NCBI GenBank assembly: GCA_035712365.1
Contig: DASTAW010000052.1
Location: 1 to 64,000, forward strand
Direction: 5' to 3'
Source: Terriglobia bacterium
GTDB lineage: Bacteria > Acidobacteriota > Terriglobia > UBA7540
Length of the DNA stretch: 64,000 nucleotides
In this document: piece after piece, positions 4,473 to 22,409 of the stretch
Layout: each line of letters begins with the position of its first letter
How positions within the stretch are numbered: position 1 is the first letter of the stretch
Notes under the pieces: model-generated
What the model saw: only the letters and a program-made list of their open reading frames with translations
What the model was told of the DNA's origin: nothing
The model's database searches: none
Translations under genes and position numbers: made by a program

Positions 4473-5654
4473 CTACTGCCTCTCAGTTTTCAGCGGGCGG
4501 CGCATGAAGGCCGGAACGTCAAGGTCGTCCGGCGAAATCTCCGAGCGCGGTTTTCCCTCCGGCTGTTCCTCCGGGCCGGCCGCAATCCTCTCGCGCCGCA
4601 ACTTCACGCTTTCCTGCGCGCTCCGCACCGCGGGCGAAACGCCTGCCATCGGCTTGATGCCCATCGCCTCTGATTTGATGCCGGTGGCAATCACGGTCAC
4701 CTTGACGGCGTCTTCCATGGATTCGTCAAGGACCGCCCCAAAGATGATGTTCGCATTGTCGGCAGCAGCCTGCTGGACGATGCTGGAAGCCTCATGCACC
4801 TCGTGCAGCGTCAGCGCGCTCGAGCCCGTGATGTTCAGCAGAATGCCATGCGCGCCGTTGATGGAGGCGTCCTCCAGCAGAGGACTGGCAATCGCCATGT
4901 TCGTGGCGTCGATGGCACGATTGTGGCCCCGCCCGACAGCCGTGCCCATCACCGCGTATCCCATGCCTTCCATGATCGTCTTGATGTCGGCAAAGTCGCG
5001 GTTGATGATGCCGGTGATGGTGATGATGTCTGAAATGCCCTGGACGCCCTGGCGAAGGATGTCATCCGCGATGCGGAATGCCTCAAAGAAGCTCGTCCCT
5101 TTGTCCACGAATTCCATCAACCGCTCATTCGGGATGCAGATGACGGTGTCCACCGCCTGGCCTAATTCCGAAAGCCCATATTCAGCCTGGGCCATTCTGC
5201 GCCGGCCTTCAAAGGCAAAAGGCTTTGTGACGACGCCGACGGTGAGCGCGCCGAGCTCGCGAGCCAGGCTGGCCACGATGGGAGCGCCACCCGTGCCCGT
5301 GCCGCCTCCGAGGCCAGCCGTCACAAACACCATATCTGCTCCCTCGAGGGCTTCCACAATCTTGTCGCTGTCTTCGAGCGCTGCAGCCCGGCCAACGTCA
5401 GGATTGGCGCCGGCCCCCAGGCCCTTGGTCAGTTTTGCGCCGAGCTGGATTTTGAGCGGCGCCTTCGACAGCTCGAGGGCCTGGAGATCGGTGTTCGCCA
5501 CCATGAACTCGACGCCTTCGACGTTGGCGGCGATCATTCGATTGACGGCATTACCGCCGCCGCCGCCCACGCCCAGCACCTTGATTTTGGCGCCGCGCTG
5601 CATGTTGTCGGAAAAATCGACCCGCAATTCTTCGGCAGGTGTATTGTTTGCCAT
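4473..5654 (-). CDS. ftsZ: Cell division protein FtsZ
   Basis: FtsZ is the tubulin-like GTPase that forms the Z-ring. The product is 393 aa from the ATG at 5654, chosen because GGGAGA stands just upstream; a frame extension of 10 residues has no such site. The glycine-rich T1 loop ([13 protein letters not shown]) is near the N-terminus and the tubulin signature GGGTGTG is at about 116-122. The extreme C-terminus has the conserved DVPAFMRR peptide that binds FtsA and other tethers, after a linker of some 60 residues. It is the last division gene of the dcw run, 43 nt after ftsA. Confidence 0.98.
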
Positions 5655-5697
5655 AATCTCTCCCAAAGCTAAACGATCAGGCATTCACGAAAATTTG

Positions 5698-6921
5698 TCA
5701 ATTTCCCGGGCCCCGCAAAACTCCCCAAAGCTTTCCCATCAAGCCCTTGTTTTGGCGGTCCTGCAGCAGCCGCATCCGCTTGCCGTAACTGACAAGCCCT
5801 ACGACCGTTGCATAGGACGGATCAGGCAGCACTTCCTCCGAACTCTCCATATTCATCGGATGCCCCACACGGACCGGCAACTCCAGTATGCCTTCAGCGA
5901 GCGAAACAAACCCGCCCAGTTTGGCTCCGCCACCGGTCAACACGACGCCGGCGCCAAGCTGGTTCTCACGGTCAACCGGTTCAATCTCGGCCTTGATCAA
6001 CTCCAGCAACTCGATAGCGCGCGGCTCGATGATCTCTCGCAGGCGCGCGTAGTTTACAATCCGGGCAGGACGGTCGCCCACGCCCGGAACTTCCAGGGCT
6101 GCGGATTCTCCCATTCCCGAGTTTTGCCTGCCCCACAGCCGCTTGATTTTCTCCGCCTCAGGCACCGGGGTCCTGAGGCCCACGGCAATGTCGTTCGTGA
6201 AGTGCTCGCCGCCAACCGGAATCGACGCCGTCAGCCGGACGCTGCCATGATGGTAGACGATCAGGTCCGAAGAACCCGCGCCCAGGTCAACCAGCGCGAC
6301 TCCCAGTTCGCGGTCGTCAGTGGTCAGGCAGGTTTCAGCGCAGGCCAGCGGCTCAAAAACTGTCCCGCTGTCGGGAACTTCAATGCCCGCGCGGTTCACC
6401 GCAGTCACCACGTTTTGCCAGGCCAGCGTGGAAGCCGTCACCACATGGACATTGGCCTCCAGATGCGAACCCACCATTCCCAGCGGGTCCCGGATGCCGT
6501 CCTGGGAATCCAGCAGGAACTCCTGCGGCAAAACGTGCAGCAGCTCGCGGTCCGCCGGGATGGCAATGCCCTGCGCCGCGCGAATCACCTGGCGGATGTC
6601 TTCCCGTCCAACGCCATGCCCGCGATTGGCAATGGTGACTCCGCCGCGCGAATTGACGCCTCGAATGTGCGATCCGCCGACACCGACGTAGGCGATATCG
6701 ACGGGGACACCTGCGGCCGATTCCGCCGCATCTACGGCTTTCTTGATCGACAGAACGGCCGCGTCCAGATTAACAATCAGGCCTTTGTGCCAGCCTTTGG
6801 ACTCTGCTATCCCCAGGCCCGTCACCTCAAGTTTCCCGGTGTCAGTGGGGTAACAAACCATGGCACAGGTCTTGCTGCTTCCGAGATCAAGGCCAATCAA
6901 TGCCTGTTCTTTGTGCGCCAA
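5698..6921 (-). CDS. ftsA: Cell division protein FtsA
   Basis: FtsA is an actin-like ATPase that tethers FtsZ filaments to the membrane. The 407-aa protein opens with the phosphate-1 loop GLDLGSSKTCAM and carries the VDLGAGSSDL phosphate-2 motif and GVVLTGGGAKL in the second lobe. The SHUT/1C domain lies between them. The last residues form a short basic, hydrophobic segment (LMGKLWGVLRG) consistent with an amphipathic membrane-targeting helix. It sits between ftsQ (6-nt gap) and ftsZ, the usual order. Confidence 0.97.
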   Translation of the reverse strand: MAHKEQALIGLDLGSSKTCAMVCYPTDTGKLEVTGLGIAESKGWHKGLIVNLDAAVLSIKKAVDAAESAAGVPVDIAYVGVGGSHIRGVNSRGGVTIANRGHGVGREDIRQVIRAAQGIAIPADRELLHVLPQEFLLDSQDGIRDPLGMVGSHLEANVHVVTASTLAWQNVVTAVNRAGIEVPDSGTVFEPLACAETCLTTDDRELGVALVDLGAGSSDLIVYHHGSVRLTASIPVGGEHFTNDIAVGLRTPVPEAEKIKRLWGRQNSGMGESAALEVPGVGDRPARIVNYARLREIIEPRAIELLELIKAEIEPVDRENQLGAGVVLTGGGAKLGGFVSLAEGILELPVRVGHPMNMESSEEVLPDPSYATVVGLVSYGKRMRLLQDRQNKGLMGKLWGVLRGPGN

Positions 6922-6927
6922 GCGTCT

Positions 6928-7803
6928 TTAGATTCCCTTCGAATTACTGGAAGCGTTACCCCCGGAATCCCGCCCCGCAGGGTTCACGACCACCTGATCT
7001 CGAAAACGCAAGTCAACAGAATCAATTCCTGCGTTCGTCCTGCGAAGCTGCGGGAGCACCGCCATCAGGTTCTTAAACCGCTCCAGAAAGCCGGCGTTTC
7101 CGAAATACACCAGAAGCGTCTGGCCGCCTTGAACCAGAAGCGCCTTGAGATTGCTTGCATCGCTTAAATCGACTTCAGAGATGGCCCATCCGAAACTCGA
7201 CACCTTTCCGGAGGTTTCGCCCATGAAATGGCTGTAAAGGTCCAGTCGCTCGATGCGGTCGGCCGCATCCCCGCGGAAGTCCAGGCCTTTGACAATGGGA
7301 AAGTCAAAGCGGCCCTTTTCGGGGGCTTCCAGCAGCACCCCCTGCTGGTCAACCATCTTGATCTGGCCACCCACATTGACAAAAGCGACTGGGACGCGCT
7401 CAGCAACGTAGACCGCCAGGCCGTGAGGATAAGAACGAACTACCGTCGCAGAGCGCACCCATGGAATCGATTCGACCTGTTTTTCCCGGCGTGCCAGCGA
7501 ACTTCTGAAAACATTACTCCTGCTGCCGGCGTCGGCCTGAATGTCCAGCGCCGCCAGGACCTCCTCCCTGGAGACATAGTGGTTGCCTCTAACCACTACG
7601 TCTGCGCCCGATCTCAACTGGAAGCGCGGGGAGTTCAGAAGATAGGTTCCAAGCAAATATCCACCAATCCCTACCGGCATAAGGACAAAGAGGATGACCC
7701 CGGACCACCACACCAGCCGGCGGATACCACGAGGGACCCTGGTTTGCCGCACCGCTACAGCGCGGGAGCGGCGCATGTAAGGCGCTTCGGAAGAAGGTTC
7801 CAT
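6928..7803 (-). CDS. ftsQ: Cell division protein FtsQ (POTRA domain)
   Basis: FtsQ is a bitopic membrane protein that links early and late divisome parts. From the ATG at 7803 it has 291 aa: a basic cytoplasmic tail, one transmembrane helix (WWSGVILFVLMPVGIGGYLL), a POTRA domain beginning near VVVRGNHYVSREEV, and the FtsQ domain with the WVRSATVVRSYP block. I prefer this start because GAGGTG lies 9 nt upstream; in-frame starts at 7830 (ATG) and 7857 (GTG) are possible. About 230 nt separate it from murC. The murB and ddl genes often found here are absent. Confidence 0.88.
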   Translation of the reverse strand: MEPSSEAPYMRRSRAVAVRQTRVPRGIRRLVWWSGVILFVLMPVGIGGYLLGTYLLNSPRFQLRSGADVVVRGNHYVSREEVLAALDIQADAGSRSNVFRSSLARREKQVESIPWVRSATVVRSYPHGLAVYVAERVPVAFVNVGGQIKMVDQQGVLLEAPEKGRFDFPIVKGLDFRGDAADRIERLDLYSHFMGETSGKVSSFGWAISEVDLSDASNLKALLVQGGQTLLVYFGNAGFLERFKNLMAVLPQLRRTNAGIDSVDLRFRDQVVVNPAGRDSGGNASSNSKGI

Positions 7804-8030
7804 TTTGCCGGACACCTCGTCGCGGTCCATCCCCAACAGGGTCAACCTTTTTATCACGGCCCATTTCCCAAAGCTCTGGGCCTGGTCGACCGATCACAGA
7901 ATAAGGAGCAAATCCACTGGTCCCGCCATCTGCCGCGGAAAACAGGTCCTGGAAAATAACAGGGACGCTGCCGCGTCAGCCTGGTTCCTGATTGAGCATA
8001 TTACCCACGGGCTTCAGCCTCTCGGAGACA

Positions 8031-9440
8031 CTATGTCTTCACCGTGCCGGGATGCTCGACACCCTCGTTGACCGCCTTCGACAGCGCTTCTGCAATCCGC
8101 CACACAGTGCCGGCCCCGATCGTCAGCACCAGGTCGCCTGGGTGGAGGTCCGCAAGGATCTCACTGGTCACAGCAGATTCCGAGGCGACGTAACGAGCGC
8201 GCGTATAGCCAAGCTCGGACATTCTGTCCACCAGGCGCTGCGAAGTGATGCCGGGAATCGGCGCCTCGCTCGCAGGATAGATGTCCAGAAAGTAGACGCG
8301 ATCACAGCCATCGAAGCAGCGGGCAAAATCGTCCATCAGGAATTTCGTTCGGGAAAACCGATGAGGCTGGAAGACCACCCGGATCCGGCGCGCCCCGCGC
8401 AGCCGGGCGGCCTCAAGCGTGGCGCTGATTTCTGTCGGATGATGGCCGTAGTCGTCAACAATCGTGATTCCATTTGCTTCCGCTTTGACCTGGAAGCGGC
8501 GGTCAGCCCCGTGAAAAGAATGCAACCCTGCCTGAATTTGTTTCGGATCAAGATCAAGCTCCCGCCCCACTGCAATGGCAGCAAGCGCATTCTGCACGTT
8601 GTGACGGCCGGGGATATTGACACTGAAGGGCCCGATCGACTGCCCGTCCACCGCAACCTCAAAGTTTGACCCGCCCGCCCTCAATTCCAGGTCGCGAGCC
8701 GTGACGTCAGCGCCCGACTGTATGCCATAAGTCACCACGCGCCTTCGCAACCGGGGCAGCACCGCCTGCATGGATGTGCGCCAGGGCGGGTCCACACACG
8801 CAATCACCGCTCCGTAAAAGGGGACCTTGTTCATGAAAGACACAAACGACTCCTGGATCTCTCCCAGGTCGCCGTAATGGTCCAGGTGCTCACGGTCGAT
8901 GTTGGTGACGACGGCAATGGTCGGCAGCAGGTAGAGAAAGGAGCGGTCACTTTCATCAGCCTCCACCACCATCAACTCGCTTTTCCCCAGCCGTGCGCTG
9001 GAACCGAACACATCCAGCCTTCCGCCAATGACGGCCGTGGGATCCAATCCGTTCTCTGACAGCATCACGGCCACCATGGAAGTCACCGTGGTCTTTCCGT
9101 GCGAGCCGGCAACTGCCACACAAAACTTCAGGCGCATCAATTCCGCCAGCATCTCAGCGCGGGGAATCACGGGGACCTTCCGGTGGGCCGCCTCGATGAT
9201 CTCGGGGTTCATCACCGGCACGGCGGACGAAACCACCACCACTTCAGCATCGCCAATATTCTCTGCAGCGTGCCGGTTCGATATGCGCGCTCCGAGTTGG
9301 GCCAGGCGGTCTGTTACAGGGCTCTGCTTAATGTCTGAGCCTGACACATCAAAGCCCAGATTGAGCAGCACTTCGGCAAGCCCGCTCATTCCAATGCCGC
9401 CAACGCCAACAAAGTGGATTTTTCGGACCTTTCCAAGCAT
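8031..9440 (-). CDS. murC: UDP-N-acetylmuramate--L-alanine ligase
   Basis: MurC adds L-alanine to UDP-MurNAc, the first amino acid of the peptidoglycan stem. The 469-aa product has the N-terminal Rossmann motif HFVGVGGIGMSG, the ATP-binding AGSHGKTTVT (111-120), and the C-terminal ligase domain with VFQPHRFSRT. The start at 9440 is favoured over a frame extending 53 residues back into murG because it begins exactly at the family start and has GGGAG about 8 nt upstream. It begins 2 nt after murG ends, so the two are tightly coupled. Confidence 0.96.
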   Translation of the reverse strand: MLGKVRKIHFVGVGGIGMSGLAEVLLNLGFDVSGSDIKQSPVTDRLAQLGARISNRHAAENIGDAEVVVVSSAVPVMNPEIIEAAHRKVPVIPRAEMLAELMRLKFCVAVAGSHGKTTVTSMVAVMLSENGLDPTAVIGGRLDVFGSSARLGKSELMVVEADESDRSFLYLLPTIAVVTNIDREHLDHYGDLGEIQESFVSFMNKVPFYGAVIACVDPPWRTSMQAVLPRLRRRVVTYGIQSGADVTARDLELRAGGSNFEVAVDGQSIGPFSVNIPGRHNVQNALAAIAVGRELDLDPKQIQAGLHSFHGADRRFQVKAEANGITIVDDYGHHPTEISATLEAARLRGARRIRVVFQPHRFSRTKFLMDDFARCFDGCDRVYFLDIYPASEAPIPGITSQRLVDRMSELGYTRARYVASESAVTSEILADLHPGDLVLTIGAGTVWRIAEALSKAVNEGVEHPGTVKT

Positions 9441-9442
9441 CG

Positions 9443-10642
9443 CTAGCTCCCTGATTTCGTCCCGCCGGCCTGAGGTTTGCGGCACAGCTCTTCGATTAAA
9501 TCTGCGATACGAGACGCTGCCTGGGGATTTGCCAGGGTCTTCGCCCGCTGTTCCATTCGGGCCAGCTTGCCCGGGTCGCCGAGCAAACTCATGACGCAAT
9601 CCACCAGCCGGACGGGGTCCAGGTCTTTCTGCTCGATCACGCAGGCGGCTCCGGCATGTTCAAGGGCCATGGCGTTGTGCAACTGGTGCTGGTCTGTGGC
9701 GGAGGGGTAAGGAACCAAAATGGACGCCTTTCCGGCGGCAGCCAGTTCAGCCACTGTGGCCGCGCCGGCGCGGCAAACAACCAGGTCAGCCCGCGAAAAA
9801 GCTCCCGCAATATTATCAATAAAGGCACATACATAGGACCCCGCCCAATGATCGCCGTAAGCAGCCTCCACAGCATTATAATCTGCCTCGCCTGTCTGAT
9901 GAATAAAACTGGGGGGCTCGGCTTTCGACCTGAATAAAGGCAGACTCTCCATCATGCACTGGTTCAACGCCCTGGCTCCCTGGCTTCCCCCCACAATCAG
10001 CACCGTGTAGGGAGGCTTGTGAAGCTTCGGCGCAACCCTATAAAACTCCTGGCGAACAGGATGCCCAGTCACCCGTCCTTTCGAACCGTAGGTGGCAAGA
10101 GACTGTTCAAAACCCACGGCAGCCAGCCGCACCACGGGCGCCAAAACCCGGTTTGTAAATCCTGGGACCACATTCGGCTCGTACAGAAGCGTTGGAATTC
10201 CAGCGAGCGCCGACTCCACCATCACCGGGCCGGAAACGTAACCGCCAATCCCTACCACCACGCCAGGCCGGAGCCGGTAGAGCAGCCTTGCAGTTTCAAA
10301 AGCGCTTCGCGGAAGCCTGGCCGCATTCAGAAGCCGCTTCCGCCCTGAAATACCCTTCAGGCCGGCGGCATAGACCTTTTCCAGCCGATAGCCTGCCCGA
10401 GGAATGATGTGCAATTCGAGTCCCCGGCCTGTCCCCAAAAACACGGTCTCGTAACATACGGGCCTGGGACCCGCAGACTCCGACCGCCGACGCAGTTCAT
10501 CGGCCACCGCCAGCGCCGGGAAAATGTGACCGCCGGTCCCGCCCGCTGCCATGAGCACACGTATCTGGCGACGCGGCGCCGGCCTGGTTGCTGGTTCCCG
10601 TGGCTGCTCCTCATCGAGCATTAATTCACTCTGGGCGTGCAT
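9443..10642 (-). CDS. murG: UDP-GlcNAc--lipid I GlcNAc transferase MurG
   Basis: MurG makes lipid II from lipid I at the inner face of the membrane. The 399-aa GT-B glycosyltransferase carries the hallmark AAGGTGGHIFPALAVADEL near residues 32-50 and the donor-binding VVCRAGAATVAELAAAGKASI in the C-terminal half, the second being the Gx2A..E UDP-sugar site. About 25 extra residues precede the glycine-rich loop, so a start a few codons later is possible. It lies 30 nt after ftsW in the normal ftsW-murG-murC order. Confidence 0.96.
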   Translation of the reverse strand: MHAQSELMLDEEQPREPATRPAPRRQIRVLMAAGGTGGHIFPALAVADELRRRSESAGPRPVCYETVFLGTGRGLELHIIPRAGYRLEKVYAAGLKGISGRKRLLNAARLPRSAFETARLLYRLRPGVVVGIGGYVSGPVMVESALAGIPTLLYEPNVVPGFTNRVLAPVVRLAAVGFEQSLATYGSKGRVTGHPVRQEFYRVAPKLHKPPYTVLIVGGSQGARALNQCMMESLPLFRSKAEPPSFIHQTGEADYNAVEAAYGDHWAGSYVCAFIDNIAGAFSRADLVVCRAGAATVAELAAAGKASILVPYPSATDQHQLHNAMALEHAGAACVIEQKDLDPVRLVDCVMSLLGDPGKLARMEQRAKTLANPQAASRIADLIEELCRKPQAGGTKSGS

Positions 10643-10672
10643 TCAAGGTCCTGTTCCTGAAAACCTGCTCTA

Positions 10673-11764
10673 CTAGCTCGTGTTTTGCGATATGTTCAGA
10701 AGGATCCCGATGGCCAAAAGAGTCATTACCAACGACGATCCTCCGTAACTGATCAACGGCAGAGGAATTCCCTTGGTGGGAAGAAGCCCAACCACGACGC
10801 TGATGTTCACGAGCGCCTGGCCAACAACCATCACGGTGATTCCCACGGCCAGCAGTCGCCCAAAATCGTTTGAACAGCGCGCGGCCGCCCGCAACCCCCG
10901 CCACAAGATCACGCAGAATAACGCGATAACCAACACGGCCCCGATAAAGCCAAGCTCTTCGCTGATGACGGCGAAAATAAAGTCATTTTGCGGCTCCGGC
11001 AGGAAAAAGAGTTTCTCCTTGCCTTCCATCAGGCCCATGCCGGAAATTCCGCCTGTCCCCACTGCAATGTAAGATTGGATGATCTGAAAGCCCGTACCCA
11101 GCGGGTCGGAGTAGGGATGCAGGAACGCGGTGATTCGTTTCGCCCGGTAACTGGTATCGAAAATCAGCAGAATCAGCATGGGGAACGCTGCCAGCATGGC
11201 ATAACCGAAATAAACCAGACGCAGCCCCGCGACGAAAAGCATGGCGGCCACAACCATGCAAAGCGCCAGGGTGGTCCCAAAATCGGGTTCCTTCAGGATC
11301 AGCAGAGCAGTGGTGCCTACCACCAGACCGATCGGCAGCAAGGTGCGCTGCCAGTCCTCAATCTCACCCTTACGCATCTCGAGGAAATACGCGAGGAAAA
11401 TGATGATGATGATTTTTGACAATTCGGAAGGCTGGACCATCGCTGAGCCCAGGTGTACCCACCGGTGGGTGTTATGCACCGGCGACTGGAACATCGCCGC
11501 CAAAAGCAACAGGACCTGGATGGCAAGCGCGGGGAAGATGACGGCGGGATTGGCCAGACGCCGATAATCGAAATTCATCATGACCACCATCAGAACCAGT
11601 CCGACAATCGCACAGAACGCCTGGCGGGAAAGAAAGTGGTAGCTTGAGCCAAAGCCTTCCTGCGCAATCACTGCAGAAGCGCTGAACACCATAACGAGCC
11701 CGAACAGGAGCAGGACCACCACCGTCCCGAACAGCACCTTGTCAGTCTGGAGTTGCTTCGCCAT
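10673..11764 (-). CDS. ftsW: Septal peptidoglycan polymerase FtsW (SEDS family)
   Basis: FtsW polymerises glycan strands from lipid II at the septum together with FtsI. The 363-aa protein is strongly hydrophobic with about ten membrane segments. The characteristic PTKGIPLPLISYGGSSL motif is near the C-terminus, and the large extracytoplasmic loop has the SDPLGTGFQIIQSYIAVGTGG region typical of SEDS glycosyltransferases. It lies 6 nt downstream of murD and 30 nt upstream of murG. RodA is the alternative paralogue, but position in the dcw cluster indicates FtsW. Confidence 0.95.
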   Translation of the reverse strand: MAKQLQTDKVLFGTVVVLLLFGLVMVFSASAVIAQEGFGSSYHFLSRQAFCAIVGLVLMVVMMNFDYRRLANPAVIFPALAIQVLLLLAAMFQSPVHNTHRWVHLGSAMVQPSELSKIIIIIFLAYFLEMRKGEIEDWQRTLLPIGLVVGTTALLILKEPDFGTTLALCMVVAAMLFVAGLRLVYFGYAMLAAFPMLILLIFDTSYRAKRITAFLHPYSDPLGTGFQIIQSYIAVGTGGISGMGLMEGKEKLFFLPEPQNDFIFAVISEELGFIGAVLVIALFCVILWRGLRAAARCSNDFGRLLAVGITVMVVGQALVNISVVVGLLPTKGIPLPLISYGGSSLVMTLLAIGILLNISQNTS

Positions 11765-11770
11765 CAGCCG

Positions 11771-13582
11771 CTAGCTCTCCTTAGGCCGCGATCGCCTGGC
11801 ACGATTGACCCTGGCGGATGCTTCTTGCGTGTTATTCGAACTTCCGCCACCCATCGCGGCTTCGGGGCGGACCTCATATGCAAACGCCTCGTCTTCGACC
11901 GCCTCGAGCTGCGTCAGGTCGTCCGCACTCAGCACGAAATCATCCATCGCTTCTTCTGGGTCCCTTGAGCTTCGCGCGGACCCTTCCTCAGCACTCACTT
12001 CGAAAACGTATTCCAGTTCTCGAGGGGAGGTCAGCACCAGGCGCTCAGGCTGGGCGGAAACGGGAGCTTCCTGGTCGCGAATCGGCTCCTGCTCGGCCAC
12101 AGGTTTTTCGAATGCCTTCGCCACAAGCGGGTCTGCCGGCAGCGCTGCAGACGCCGCGGGACGCGGAACGGCGCGATCGGGAATGACCTGCGCCTGAAGC
12201 ACTGCACGGGCGCTGCTTCTCCTTGAGCTCTCCTCTGCCAGCCGTTGGACCAGTTCCTTGAATACCCGCCCGCGATGTTCGAAATTCTCAAACTGATCGA
12301 AGCTGGAACAGGCGGGAGCCAGCAGCACAACGTCACCGGGCCTTGCGCGCTCAGCCGCCGTCCTCACTGCCGTTTCCAGATCGCCGGCTTCAACAATCTC
12401 CACTGCGCCGGCCAGGTCGCTTACGATTTGTTTCCGGGCAGCTCCAATCACGAGAATTTCACGGACCCGGTCCTTCAACAAGCTCCGGAGCGGCCCATAG
12501 GGCGCACCCTTGTCCTTGCCTCCCAAAATCAGGTGTACCCCTCTCTCAAAGCTTGATAGCGCCTTCGCGGCCGCATCCACACTCGTCGCCTTGGAATCGT
12601 TATAGAAGTCCACGCCCCGAATTTCGCGCACGAACTCCAGCCGGTGTTCCACTCCGCTGAACTCGCGGACGGCCTTCCGGATAGAACTGAACTCTGCTCC
12701 CAGAACGCAGGCGGCGGCGGACGCAGCCAGCACATTTTCCAAATTGAAGGCGCCTAGCAGCCGGACGTCGCTCGTCCGCATCAAGCCCACTTCCAGGTTC
12801 TGCACCCGGTAAAGGACTGTCCCTGCCGAAATGAAAACACCGCTGGCAAGCTCCCTGCACCGGCTGAAGAGCACCTTCTGGCTTTGAATTGACGGAACCA
12901 GTTTCATCACGTTTTCGTCGTCCGCGTTCAGGATTGCGTAATCTTCGTGCTTCTGGTTCCTGAAAATTCGGGCTTTCGCAGCGATGTACGCCTCAAAGCT
13001 CGGATGTCGGTCCAGATGATTCGGGCTTAAGTTCAGCAGCGCGGCGACGTGCGGCCGAAACGAGCTGATGGTTTCAAGCTGAAAGCTGCTCAATTCTGAC
13101 ACTATTATGGATGGTGGAGGGTCAAGATCAACTGCCGAAAGCAGGGGCACGCCAATGTTTCCGCCTACAAAAGTGGAAAGGCCCGACGCTTCCAGCATCC
13201 TTCCGAGCAACGTCGCGGTGGTGGTCTTGCCGTTGGTACCCGTAATGCCCGCCAGGCGACCTTTGAGAAACCAACCAGCCAGTTCAATTTCGGGAACCAC
13301 CGGGATTCCCTTCTGCCTCGCCAGGTTCAGGACCGGAAGGTCAGCCGGCACGCCGGGGCTTACGACGATAAGGTCCTGCCGGAGAAAAGTCGATTCCCGA
13401 GGCGGTCCAAGTTCGAGGCCGATGTGCCGGTTAAGCAGTTCCGGAACAACTGTTGGAAATGCCTCAGGGCCACGCAGGTCAGTCCCGGTGACCACCGCTC
13501 CGTGGTCGCTCAGCCAGTGTGCGGCTGCCACCCCGCTGCGGGCCAACCCCACCACCAGTACACTCTTACCCCGAATGTCCAT
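11771..13582 (-). CDS. murD: UDP-MurNAc-L-Ala--D-glutamate ligase with long C-terminal tail
   Basis: MurD adds D-glutamate to the stem peptide. The first 450 residues are a normal MurD: Rossmann start VLVVGLARSGVAAA, ATP loop GITGTNGKTTTATLLG (112-125), and a domain-3 end at FEHRGRVFKELVQRLAEE. Unusually the frame continues for about 150 residues (11774-12226) of proline-, alanine-, glutamate- and serine-rich sequence with acidic patches and a basic end, probably disordered. The frame is open throughout with no frameshift sign. Its ATG overlaps the stop of the upstream RHH gene (TGATG), so translation is probably coupled. Confidence 0.94.
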   Translation of the reverse strand: MDIRGKSVLVVGLARSGVAAAHWLSDHGAVVTGTDLRGPEAFPTVVPELLNRHIGLELGPPRESTFLRQDLIVVSPGVPADLPVLNLARQKGIPVVPEIELAGWFLKGRLAGITGTNGKTTTATLLGRMLEASGLSTFVGGNIGVPLLSAVDLDPPPSIIVSELSSFQLETISSFRPHVAALLNLSPNHLDRHPSFEAYIAAKARIFRNQKHEDYAILNADDENVMKLVPSIQSQKVLFSRCRELASGVFISAGTVLYRVQNLEVGLMRTSDVRLLGAFNLENVLAASAAACVLGAEFSSIRKAVREFSGVEHRLEFVREIRGVDFYNDSKATSVDAAAKALSSFERGVHLILGGKDKGAPYGPLRSLLKDRVREILVIGAARKQIVSDLAGAVEIVEAGDLETAVRTAAERARPGDVVLLAPACSSFDQFENFEHRGRVFKELVQRLAEESSRRSSARAVLQAQVIPDRAVPRPAASAALPADPLVAKAFEKPVAEQEPIRDQEAPVSAQPERLVLTSPRELEYVFEVSAEEGSARSSRDPEEAMDDFVLSADDLTQLEAVEDEAFAYEVRPEAAMGGGSSNNTQEASARVNRARRSRPKES

Positions 13583-13764
13583 CAGGAACGTCTCTCTGGC
13601 CGCCCATGACCGTTCGAGCGGAAGTGAGTGTCAAGTATTTCGGATACCACAACCGAAAGGGACCTTCGCCGCTGACGCGCCAGGCGCCGGGCGGTTTGCA
13701 GCGTTTTACGGTCCAGCGTCAGGCTCACTCGTGTCGGATTGCGGAACGACTTTGGTCTTCCCAT
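13582..13764 (-). CDS. Small ribbon-helix-helix (CopG-like) DNA-binding protein in the dcw cluster
   Basis: The 60-aa product has the layout of a ribbon-helix-helix repressor: a basic N-terminus, a beta strand RVSLTLD, a helix KTLQTARRLARQR, then RSLSVVVSEILDTHF as the second helix, and a short basic tail. Such proteins bind palindromic or tandem operators as dimers. Its stop overlaps the murD start by one base (TGATG). Directly upstream are a good promoter and repeated 11-bp elements. No toxin gene is adjacent, so I infer a stand-alone autoregulator rather than half of a toxin-antitoxin pair. The family call rests on pattern only. Confidence 0.7.
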   Translation of the reverse strand: MGRPKSFRNPTRVSLTLDRKTLQTARRLARQRRRSLSVVVSEILDTHFRSNGHGRPERRS

Positions 13765-13770
13765 CGATTA

Positions 13771-13795
13771 TTTACGCGCATTTTATGCGCATAAA
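13771..13795 (-). promoter_or_regulatory. Candidate RHH operator: tandem 11-bp repeats and 14-bp palindrome
   Basis: On the plus strand TTTACGCGCAT (13771-13781) is followed at once by TTTATGCGCAT (13782-13792), one mismatch in 11. The second copy extends into a perfect 14-bp palindrome, TTTATGCGCATAAA (13782-13795). Two sites one helical turn apart are what cooperative ribbon-helix-helix dimers usually bind. The block covers the -10 and part of the spacer of the promoter for the RHH gene and murD. Confidence 0.6.
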
Positions 13796-13808
13796 CTCCT
13801 TGCGTCAA
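13780..13808 (-). promoter_or_regulatory. Sigma70-type promoter internal to the dcw cluster
   Basis: Reading on the minus strand, TTGACG (13808-13803) and TAAAAT (13785-13780) are separated by exactly 17 nt; each hexamer matches consensus at five of six positions. It lies in the 57-nt gap between mraY and the RHH gene, so it could start transcription of RHH-murD-ftsW-murG-murC-ftsQAZ. The predicted transcript start is only about 9 nt before the RHH ATG, and no ribosome-binding site is visible there. Confidence 0.6.
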
Positions 13809-13821
13809 CGGTTTTTGCAGA

Positions 13822-14952
13822 CTACCGGAGCTTCAGAGTTGTCAGCGCAAACAGGGCGCAGATAAGCGCTGCGATCCAGAAACGCGCAATAATTTTCGAC
13901 TCTTTCCAGCCCTGTAGCTCAAAGTGGTGGTGCAAGGGCGCCATCCTGAACACTCGCTTCCGGCGGAGCTTATACGATCCCACTTGTAGAATGACCGAAA
14001 GGGCCTCAATCACGAAGATGCCGCCGATAAACGGCAGCAGAAGTTCCTGTTTAATGATGACGGCCACTGCGGCCACCGCACCTCCCAGCGAGAGCGAGCC
14101 AACATCGCCCATAAAGATCTCGGCTGGGTACGCGTTGTACCAGAGGAAGCCAAGGCTGGAGCCGACCATCGCGCCGCAAAAAATCGTCAATTCTGCGGTC
14201 TGCGGCAAGTGCTCGATGTCAAGGTAGGCCGACCATACAGCGTGGCTGGACACGTAGGTCAGGACCGTCAGGGCCGAGGCAGCCACAACAATGCAGCCGA
14301 TGGCCAGGCCGTCGAGGCCGTCCGTCAAATTGACGGCGTTGGACGACCCCACCAGTATGATGACGGCGAAGGCAACGAAAGGCAGAAAGGCAAGAGGATA
14401 ACTCCACGAATTGTGCAGCAGGGCCTGAATGGTGAAACTGGGATGAATACGCTTGAAGAAAGGAAACACGATGGCTGTGGAATAAAGCCCCCACGCCGTC
14501 ATCGCCACCAGGATCATGCCAAAAATGAAACTGATCAGAATTTGCAGCATGAATTTCGTCCGGGCCGTCAACCCCAGATTGTTCCGTTTTCGAAGCTTTT
14601 GATAGTCGTCCCAGAAGCCGATACCCGCAAACGCCGCAGTCACTCCAAGCGCCAGCCAAACGAACGGATTGCTGAGATCGGCCCAAAGCAGGGTAGGAAT
14701 CACGATGCACAGGTTGATGAGGACACCGCCCATCGTAGGCGTTCCGGCCTTGGCCTGATGTGCTTTTGGCCCATCCTCCCGAATGTACTGCCCGATCTGG
14801 AACTGCTTCAGCTTCCGGATGACGTACGGGCCCAGGAACATTGAAAGGAACAGCGCGGTCAGACTGGCGTATGCGGTCCGAAAGGTGATGTAGTGAAAAA
14901 GATTTAACAGGTGATATTGGGCATGAAATTTGGAGTAAAGGTAATAAAACAT
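13822..14952 (-). CDS. mraY: Phospho-MurNAc-pentapeptide transferase MraY
   Basis: MraY joins UDP-MurNAc-pentapeptide to undecaprenyl phosphate, giving lipid I. The 376-aa polytopic protein contains the conserved AGTPTMGG motif, the aspartate pair in FWDDYQK, and the catalytic NLTDGLDGLA motif; the HHH-type motif is seen as PLHHHFE near the C-terminus. About ten membrane helices are evident. It lies 9 nt after murF, as in most dcw clusters, but a promoter and an RHH gene separate it from murD. Confidence 0.97.
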   Translation of the reverse strand: MFYYLYSKFHAQYHLLNLFHYITFRTAYASLTALFLSMFLGPYVIRKLKQFQIGQYIREDGPKAHQAKAGTPTMGGVLINLCIVIPTLLWADLSNPFVWLALGVTAAFAGIGFWDDYQKLRKRNNLGLTARTKFMLQILISFIFGMILVAMTAWGLYSTAIVFPFFKRIHPSFTIQALLHNSWSYPLAFLPFVAFAVIILVGSSNAVNLTDGLDGLAIGCIVVAASALTVLTYVSSHAVWSAYLDIEHLPQTAELTIFCGAMVGSSLGFLWYNAYPAEIFMGDVGSLSLGGAVAAVAVIIKQELLLPFIGGIFVIEALSVILQVGSYKLRRKRVFRMAPLHHHFELQGWKESKIIARFWIAALICALFALTTLKLR

Positions 14953-21855: not shown

Positions 21856-22296
21856 CTAAATGCCGAGGTCGCTCAAAGCCTGCATGTCATCATCCGTCAA
21901 CGGATTGCCGTCAAGATGCGCCCGGAACCGGTCCATGTTCCAAACATCCAGATAGTTCAGATAACCGATCACCGCAACCTCACCTTGCATCCCAGCGGAT
22001 TCGCGCAGCAATGACGGAACCAGGATTCTTCCCTGCCCATCTATCTGTACCGCCTGCCCCCAGTAGTTGGCCCGGTCCAGAAACTTGCGCTTCGATTTGT
22101 TCATCGAGGGCAGTATCGCCAGCTTTTCCTCGATGTCCCTCCACACAGAAAACGGATAAATACGGACCGACTGACCGTCGAGGCTGGTCACATAGAAATC
22201 GTGGCCAAAGGTCACTTCCAGATGTGACTTGAAGGCGGTTGGGATCTTCACCCTTCCCTTCGCGTCCACCGTAGCTGGGTAATTTCCTCGCAGCAT
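21856..22296 (-). CDS. mraZ: Transcriptional regulator MraZ
   Basis: MraZ is an AbrB-like swapped-hairpin DNA-binding protein that represses its own dcw promoter in the species studied. The 146-aa length is normal. Both family repeats are visible: the first opens MLRGNYPATVDAKGRVKIP and the second has QIDGQGRILVPSLLRESAG. It is the first gene of the cluster and is preceded by a strong promoter with an evenly spaced set of GTGG sites, which it probably binds as a ring-shaped oligomer. Confidence 0.96.
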   Translation of the reverse strand: MLRGNYPATVDAKGRVKIPTAFKSHLEVTFGHDFYVTSLDGQSVRIYPFSVWRDIEEKLAILPSMNKSKRKFLDRANYWGQAVQIDGQGRILVPSLLRESAGMQGEVAVIGYLNYLDVWNMDRFRAHLDGNPLTDDDMQALSDLGI

Positions 22297-22333: not shown

Positions 22334-22378
22334 GCCACTTTCATACATTTTCTACTACTTTAGACCACTTCAGCCCAC
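22334..22378 (-). promoter_or_regulatory. MraZ-type operator: five 10-bp-spaced boxes
   Basis: On the minus strand the boxes GTGGG (22378-22374), GTGGT (22368-22364), GTAGT (22358-22354), a degenerate ATGTA (22348-22344) and GTGGC (22338-22334) each begin exactly 10 bp apart with 5-bp spacers. Known MraZ sites are runs of TGGG-like boxes with the same 10-bp period. The array begins near the predicted transcription start and covers the early transcribed region, so bound MraZ would block initiation or escape. Confidence 0.75.
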
Positions 22379-22380
22379 TC

Positions 22381-22409
22381 AATATAAGTGGGACACATAG
22401 CGATGTCAA
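22381..22409 (-). promoter_or_regulatory. mraZ (dcw) promoter
   Basis: The minus strand has a perfect -35 TTGACA (22409-22404), a 17-nt spacer, and -10 TATATT (22386-22381), five of six to consensus. The expected start of transcription is about 22374, at the first MraZ box, leaving a leader of about 75 nt. The rest of the 342-bp gap between mraZ and the upstream methyltransferase (22410-22638) shows nothing else I can identify. Confidence 0.75.

Follow-up and report, generated by a model that had tools for sequence, protein, structure and literature searches.

Few gene orders in bacteria are as well conserved as that of the dcw cluster, whose sole well-known cluster-borne regulator is, to our knowledge, MraZ. 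The question raised by the locus described here is whether the genes from murD onwards also possess a self-controlled entry point of their own. The window analysed, a stretch of 64,000 nucleotides from a Terriglobia bacterium (contig DASTAW010000052.1), carries a small ORF between mraY and murD that was read in a first-pass annotation as a ribbon–helix–helix (RHH) repressor with its own promoter and operator (Table 1). In E. coli and Burkholderia, MraZ at the front governs the dcw cluster, and tests of the ddl-ftsA region in Burkholderia detected no active promoter (PMC7761207); internal promoters have been described in the E. coli cluster (PMC5089854). Searches of the open-licence literature turned up no paper that links an RHH protein to a dcw cluster or to murD, and none that describes two separate autoregulators in one such cluster.

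Table 1. Positions in the window of the RHH gene, its predicted control elements and the surrounding dcw genes.
Feature	Position	Strand	Support
RHH regulator gene, 60 aa (MGRPKSFRNPTRVSLTLDRKTLQTARRLARQRRRSLSVVVSEILDTHFRSNGHGRPERRS)	13582..13764	-	kept in relatives; predicted helices; structure matches
TGATG stop/start overlap, RHH gene coupled to murD	13580..13584	-	one-base overlap in 21/22 loci
-35 element TTGACG	13803..13808	-	TTGAC 17 or 18 bp from -10 in 22/22
-10 element TAAAAT	13780..13785	-	invariant in 22/22
Putative operator core TGCGCATAAAATGCGCG (family consensus TGCGCATAAAATRCGCA)	13775..13791	-	single locus in all 22 gene-bearing genomes
Putative extended operator dyad TTnnTGCGCAT AAA ATGCGCAnnAA (25 bp)	13771..13795	-	TT/AA flank pairs in 22/22 and 21/22
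Predicted transcription start	13772..13773	-	inferred from -10 position
mraY, upstream neighbour of RHH gene	13822..14952	-	
murD (TIGR01087), first gene downstream of RHH gene	11771..13582	-	
ftsW, murG, murC, ftsQ, ftsA, ftsZ, rest of proposed downstream unit	4473..11764	-	NCBIfam (ftsQ match below curated cut-off)
mraZ, front regulator of cluster	21856..22296	-	
mraZ promoter TTGACA-17-TATATT (22409-22381) and GTGG-type repeats	22350..22409	-	

The ORF was found where the first-pass annotation had placed it, beginning 57 bp after the end of mraY, with its TGA sharing one base with the ATG of murD (TGATG). No terminator was seen between mraY and the RHH gene, the sole match (at locus L021) being the operator itself. 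The TTGACG-17-TAAAAT promoter noted upstream is likewise present and, together with the mraZ promoter, gives the two best sigma-70-like matches between positions 8000 and 24000. Seven such matches were found in this interval against 4.6 expected, which is barely above chance, and the window sequence alone would therefore not prove a promoter. Similarly, the 14-bp perfect palindrome TTTATGCGCATAAA and two 11-bp repeats exist in the window, but neither was reported by a repeat search at the settings used, so that in this sequence alone they could have arisen by chance. The MraZ control that the annotation named as normal at the front of dcw clusters is matched by an intact mraZ gene, separate from the RHH gene, and by GTGG/GTAG repeats that closely follow the mraZ -10 element at 10-bp spacing. 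These MraZ-box-like repeats are conserved through the family and probably constitute the expected MraZ autoregulatory site.

Among 39 genomes of the family, 22 from 14 genera contain the RHH gene, which lies between mraY and murD in all 22 wherever the contig reaches both. The encoded proteins are 66–81% identical to the window's copy and almost invariant across residues 1–17, and in nine pairs of genes pN was 0.04–0.14 compared with a pS of 0.37–0.77, which indicates purifying selection and hence that the ORF encodes a real protein. In 21 of the 22 loci its stop codon and the murD start codon share one base; at the other (L016), the aligned murD start lies downstream. Retention of this overlap, and the fact that decayed copies in genomes G037 and G038 are still open into murD, could be taken to mean that the small ORF serves chiefly as a leader for murD translation, with its protein of little importance. 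This is very unlikely given the strong conservation of the amino acids, not least in the N-terminal part expected to contact DNA, and given 13 junctions without the RHH gene that lead into murD without any conserved leader ORF.

Beyond the family, the protein had only two weak partial matches in 396 genomes of the phylum. A search of 84,980 species returned 20 loci, all from Acidobacteriota/Terriglobia and several labelled subdivision 13 or gp13. These searches used strict patterns by which remote relatives may be missed. A mobile or phage origin was considered and rejected, as no relatives of the protein were found among viral contigs, plasmids or PHROGs.

Upstream regions of the 22 genes were aligned on the -10 element. 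TTGAC was present in every region at a distance of 17 bp (20 regions) or 18 bp (2 regions), and all 22 contained the core [TC]GCG[CT]ATAAAAT[GA]CGC[AG] flanked by TT and AA in corresponding positions, the near-invariant form being TTTnTGCGCATAAAATRCGCAnTAA. Two TGCGYA boxes are found at the gene's own promoter in each case, one on either side of the -10; as TGCGCA, they are 6-bp palindromes with centres 11 bp, or one helical turn, apart. Information in the outer flanks of the alignment is near zero. With promoter and in-register boxes in 22 of 22 regions and random flanks around them, the repeats in the window are not a product of chance. Thus the gene and upstream repeats expected by the first-pass annotation to recur in related genomes do so, with one correction: the outer bases of the 14-bp palindrome it had singled out vary among relatives, and the conserved element is instead the TGCGCA box pair flanking the -10.

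As a comparison, mraZ promoters from the same genomes keep their -35 and -10 elements but have variable spacers except for the GTGG-type repeats. The extra conservation at the RHH site is therefore not a promoter effect, and the GCGCA flanks of the -10, as judged from these alignments, exceed what a promoter needs. Variation within the boxes is mirror-symmetric, with C to T on the left and G to A on the right, which fits recognition of DNA by a protein. The right box in the window reads TGCGCG, a last-base substitution found in no other copy. The ATG follows the -10 by 11–15 nt in 16 of the 22 genomes and by 69–125 nt in the remaining 6, and an SD-like motif precedes it in just 2. Inserts of ~55–110 bp lie between the promoter/operator and the RHH start at six loci (L004, L006, L011, L012, L016 and L022), and those at L016 and L022 end with GAATTTCGAGTTTC-like repeats, which also occur at other mraY-murD junctions. 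Because these inserts lengthen the leader in six genomes, conservation of the promoter does not stem from coding constraint.

The same palindromic sequence could in principle act as RNA. Read-through from mraY would transcribe TGCGCAT-AAA-ATGCGCA, which could fold into a 7-bp hairpin, located ~10 nt before the ATG in the 16 genomes with a short leader, and could cause attenuation or mask the start codon. The pairing counts favour a protein–DNA site, with positions 4 and 12 able to pair in 14 of 22 sequences and broken in 8, and with one double change. Moreover, the invariant -10 and TTGAC are unneeded for a hairpin, no U-tract is present, and in 6 of 22 genomes the ATG lies 69–125 nt away. The hairpin was rejected on these grounds as highly improbable.

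The putative operator was sought across whole genomes with up to two mismatches, using the reversed pattern as a control. At no more than one mismatch, each of the 22 gene-bearing genomes contained a single copy, located exclusively at the RHH locus, whereas none of the 17 genomes lacking an intact gene contained any; no family genome had a second site at this threshold. As the pattern was read from gene-linked sites, presence at the gene is by construction, but absence elsewhere is not. Matches with two mismatches occurred at roughly the frequency of the reversed control. A wider regulon was also sought using two boxes with any 5-bp spacer and was discarded, the matches being scattered, not clearly beyond chance and without an evident common target. 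Promoter and protein could merely share a locus, the site being the operator of some other transcription factor, or an unusually strict promoter, while the RHH protein acts elsewhere. This is considered unlikely, though less so than the leader and hairpin readings: site and gene vanish together in separate lineages, the site occurs once per genome beside the RHH gene only, a second conserved target was looked for in the family genomes and not found, and binding by two RHH dimers would predict just such a pair of palindromic boxes at an 11-bp distance.

The 17 genomes without an intact gene comprise 13 in which the assembled junction is empty, 2 without an assembled mraY and 2 with decayed copies. 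At the 13 mraY-murD junctions, which are about 35–300 bp long, neither the RHH gene nor the operator was found. Only one of the three species in the window's genus has an intact gene. In G037, from this genus, an in-frame deletion has cost the protein its first helix together with the end of the ribbon, the promoter reads TAATCT and the boxes are damaged; in G038, a sister species also from this genus, the frame is open but the residues are scrambled, and promoter and boxes are gone. With a unique substitution in its operator and the system lost from its two nearest relatives, the species in the window may itself be close to losing it. When placed on an mraY+murD tree, absences fall at G030, G037, G038 and a seven-genome branch of genus g2, with further possible absences at G031 and in a basal group, where support is weak. 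The simplest history consistent with this tree would be a single gain within the family, after which the gene descended vertically and was lost repeatedly, the site disappearing each time as well. Having been lost or having decayed in at least four places, the gene is dispensable, and the cluster works without it. At L025 and L026, from sister species, the copies have decayed differently, yet both are open frames that still share the TGATG with murD, a hint that translational coupling to murD outlasts the regulator at these two loci.

Assignment of the 60-aa protein to the RHH fold rests on prediction. RHH proteins have a strand–helix–helix core of ~45 residues and bind as dimers with the strand in the major groove, the strand forming only in the dimer. 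The monomer predicted by AlphaFold has helices at residues 19–32 and 36–52 and no formed strand, at moderate confidence (pLDDT 67). Structure comparison placed RHH chains at the top of the list, with most aligned chains being RHH, at modest Z scores (best 4.8), and a family profile gave CopG as the most plausible solved relative (E 0.02, residues 12–48 against 4–40). Homeodomain profile matches covered 22 residues and look spurious. An RHH fold is thus the most likely on these models. The protein scored 14.3 bits against Pfam RHH_1 (PF01402), below the gathering score of 20.5, and 24.9 bits against DUF6364, below the cut-off of 27.3; NCBIfam and PHROGs contain no family for it, and no match to MraZ was seen, so it is not a dcw regulator of the MraZ type. 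By these scores it would fall outside RHH_1 and represent a separate, divergent family.

The best Pfam likeness is to DUF6364 in 20 of 21 members, together with antitoxin RHH families, all below cut-offs; no publication on DUF6364 was found among open-licence papers. This likeness may show where the protein came from, and it could also suggest a remnant antitoxin (DUF6364/FitA/CcdA-like) left from a toxin–antitoxin pair and without a role in dcw. No toxin gene adjoins it in any locus, its neighbours being mraY and murD, and gene and operator are kept in 14 genera, always at that position, making a remnant antitoxin the least probable of the alternatives considered.

Gene and site are conserved and inherited together, the site occurs once per genome, and gene order and the overlap with murD are kept; with the predicted fold, this makes it very probable that a dedicated, single-target RHH autorepressor controls an internal promoter for murD-ftsW-murG-murC-ftsQAZ. 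The second autoregulated entry point proposed in the first-pass annotation is hence supported by co-conservation and co-loss, from which we infer binding, repression and promoter activity. RNA polymerase would start at the internal sigma-70 promoter. In the 16 genomes with only 11–15 nt between the -10 and the ATG, transcripts would be expected to have almost no leader, and from the start predicted in the window the RHH mRNA would have a 5' leader of ~8 nt without a Shine–Dalgarno sequence. The TGATG overlap would carry this mRNA into murD and then, presumably, ftsW, murG, murC, ftsQ, ftsA and ftsZ. Two RHH dimers, bound to TGCGCA boxes that lie a helical turn from each other and so face the same side of the DNA, would cover the -10 and shut the promoter. 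A repressor site over the -10 of the repressor's own gene is established for CopG and Arc-type proteins.

Given the coupling of the RHH gene to murD, and with no terminator found after mraY, the internal promoter and read-through would both make repressor. Transcripts from mraY pass the RHH gene, so the level of repressor should track the combined transcription of the cluster's second half, and the loop would then buffer that half against changes at the MraZ front promoter. A more extended model, in which a lineage-specific second autoregulator splits dcw into two independently homeostatic halves, MraZ serving mraZ to mraY and the RHH protein serving murD-ftsW-murG-murC-ftsQAZ, and with the loop, fed also by read-through, compensating for changes in upstream flow, is put forward tentatively, at a little short of an even chance.

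The components are of known kinds, and it is the dcw architecture with two autoregulators that would be new. The protein resembles the CopG/Arc-type RHH autorepressors (PDB 2cpg, 1ea4 and 1par) in size, two-helix core and conserved ribbon (RVSLTL), and in an operator whose two dyad boxes lie roughly a helical turn from each other and overlap the promoter of the protein's own gene. It differs from them in being chromosomal, within an essential cell-wall/division operon, in its TGCGCA-N5-TGCGCA operator, and in that no plasmid or phage relative was found. As a proposed autoregulator encoded in the cluster with a site at its own promoter it is comparable to MraZ of E. coli and Burkholderia (PMC7761207), which belongs to another family, uses tandem GTG boxes and lies at the cluster front. 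CdbA of Myxococcus xanthus (PMC7156744), which ranks high in the fold comparison, is likewise a small chromosomal RHH protein with a direct-repeat site of one-turn spacing, but it is a nucleoid-organising c-di-GMP receptor with hundreds of genomic sites.

The closest analogue of the architecture, judged by size and placement, appears to be archaeal CdrS-FtsZ2. In H. volcanii, CdrS is a 61-aa RHH protein encoded just before ftsZ2 and co-transcribed with it; it acts on several genes, with 18 sites, and the cdrS-ftsZ2 promoter is bound by CdrL (PMC7439475, PMC8406309). These two papers do not use the word autoregulation for CdrS. The arrangement here differs from CdrS in having one predicted site, over the gene's own -10, and murD as the first coupled gene. 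The likeness suggests a parallel with archaea, a small RHH gene before a division gene, reached from an apparently independent start. The second half of dcw in this family of soil Acidobacteria appears to be under a self-controlled switch of its own, one that is absent from model bacteria. Its gain in one family and loss in several branches provide natural pairs with and without it, even within one genus, in which to study the need for separate control of the late mur and fts genes and the function of an autoregulatory loop placed mid-operon.

As a separate observation on the first coupled gene, MurD in the window has a C-terminal extension of ~155 aa beyond the enzyme domain (positions 11774–12238, minus strand) that is partly low-complexity and acidic. 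Conservation of the extension is low, at 47% within the genus and weak outside it, and long murD frames of 590–757 aa recur across the family.
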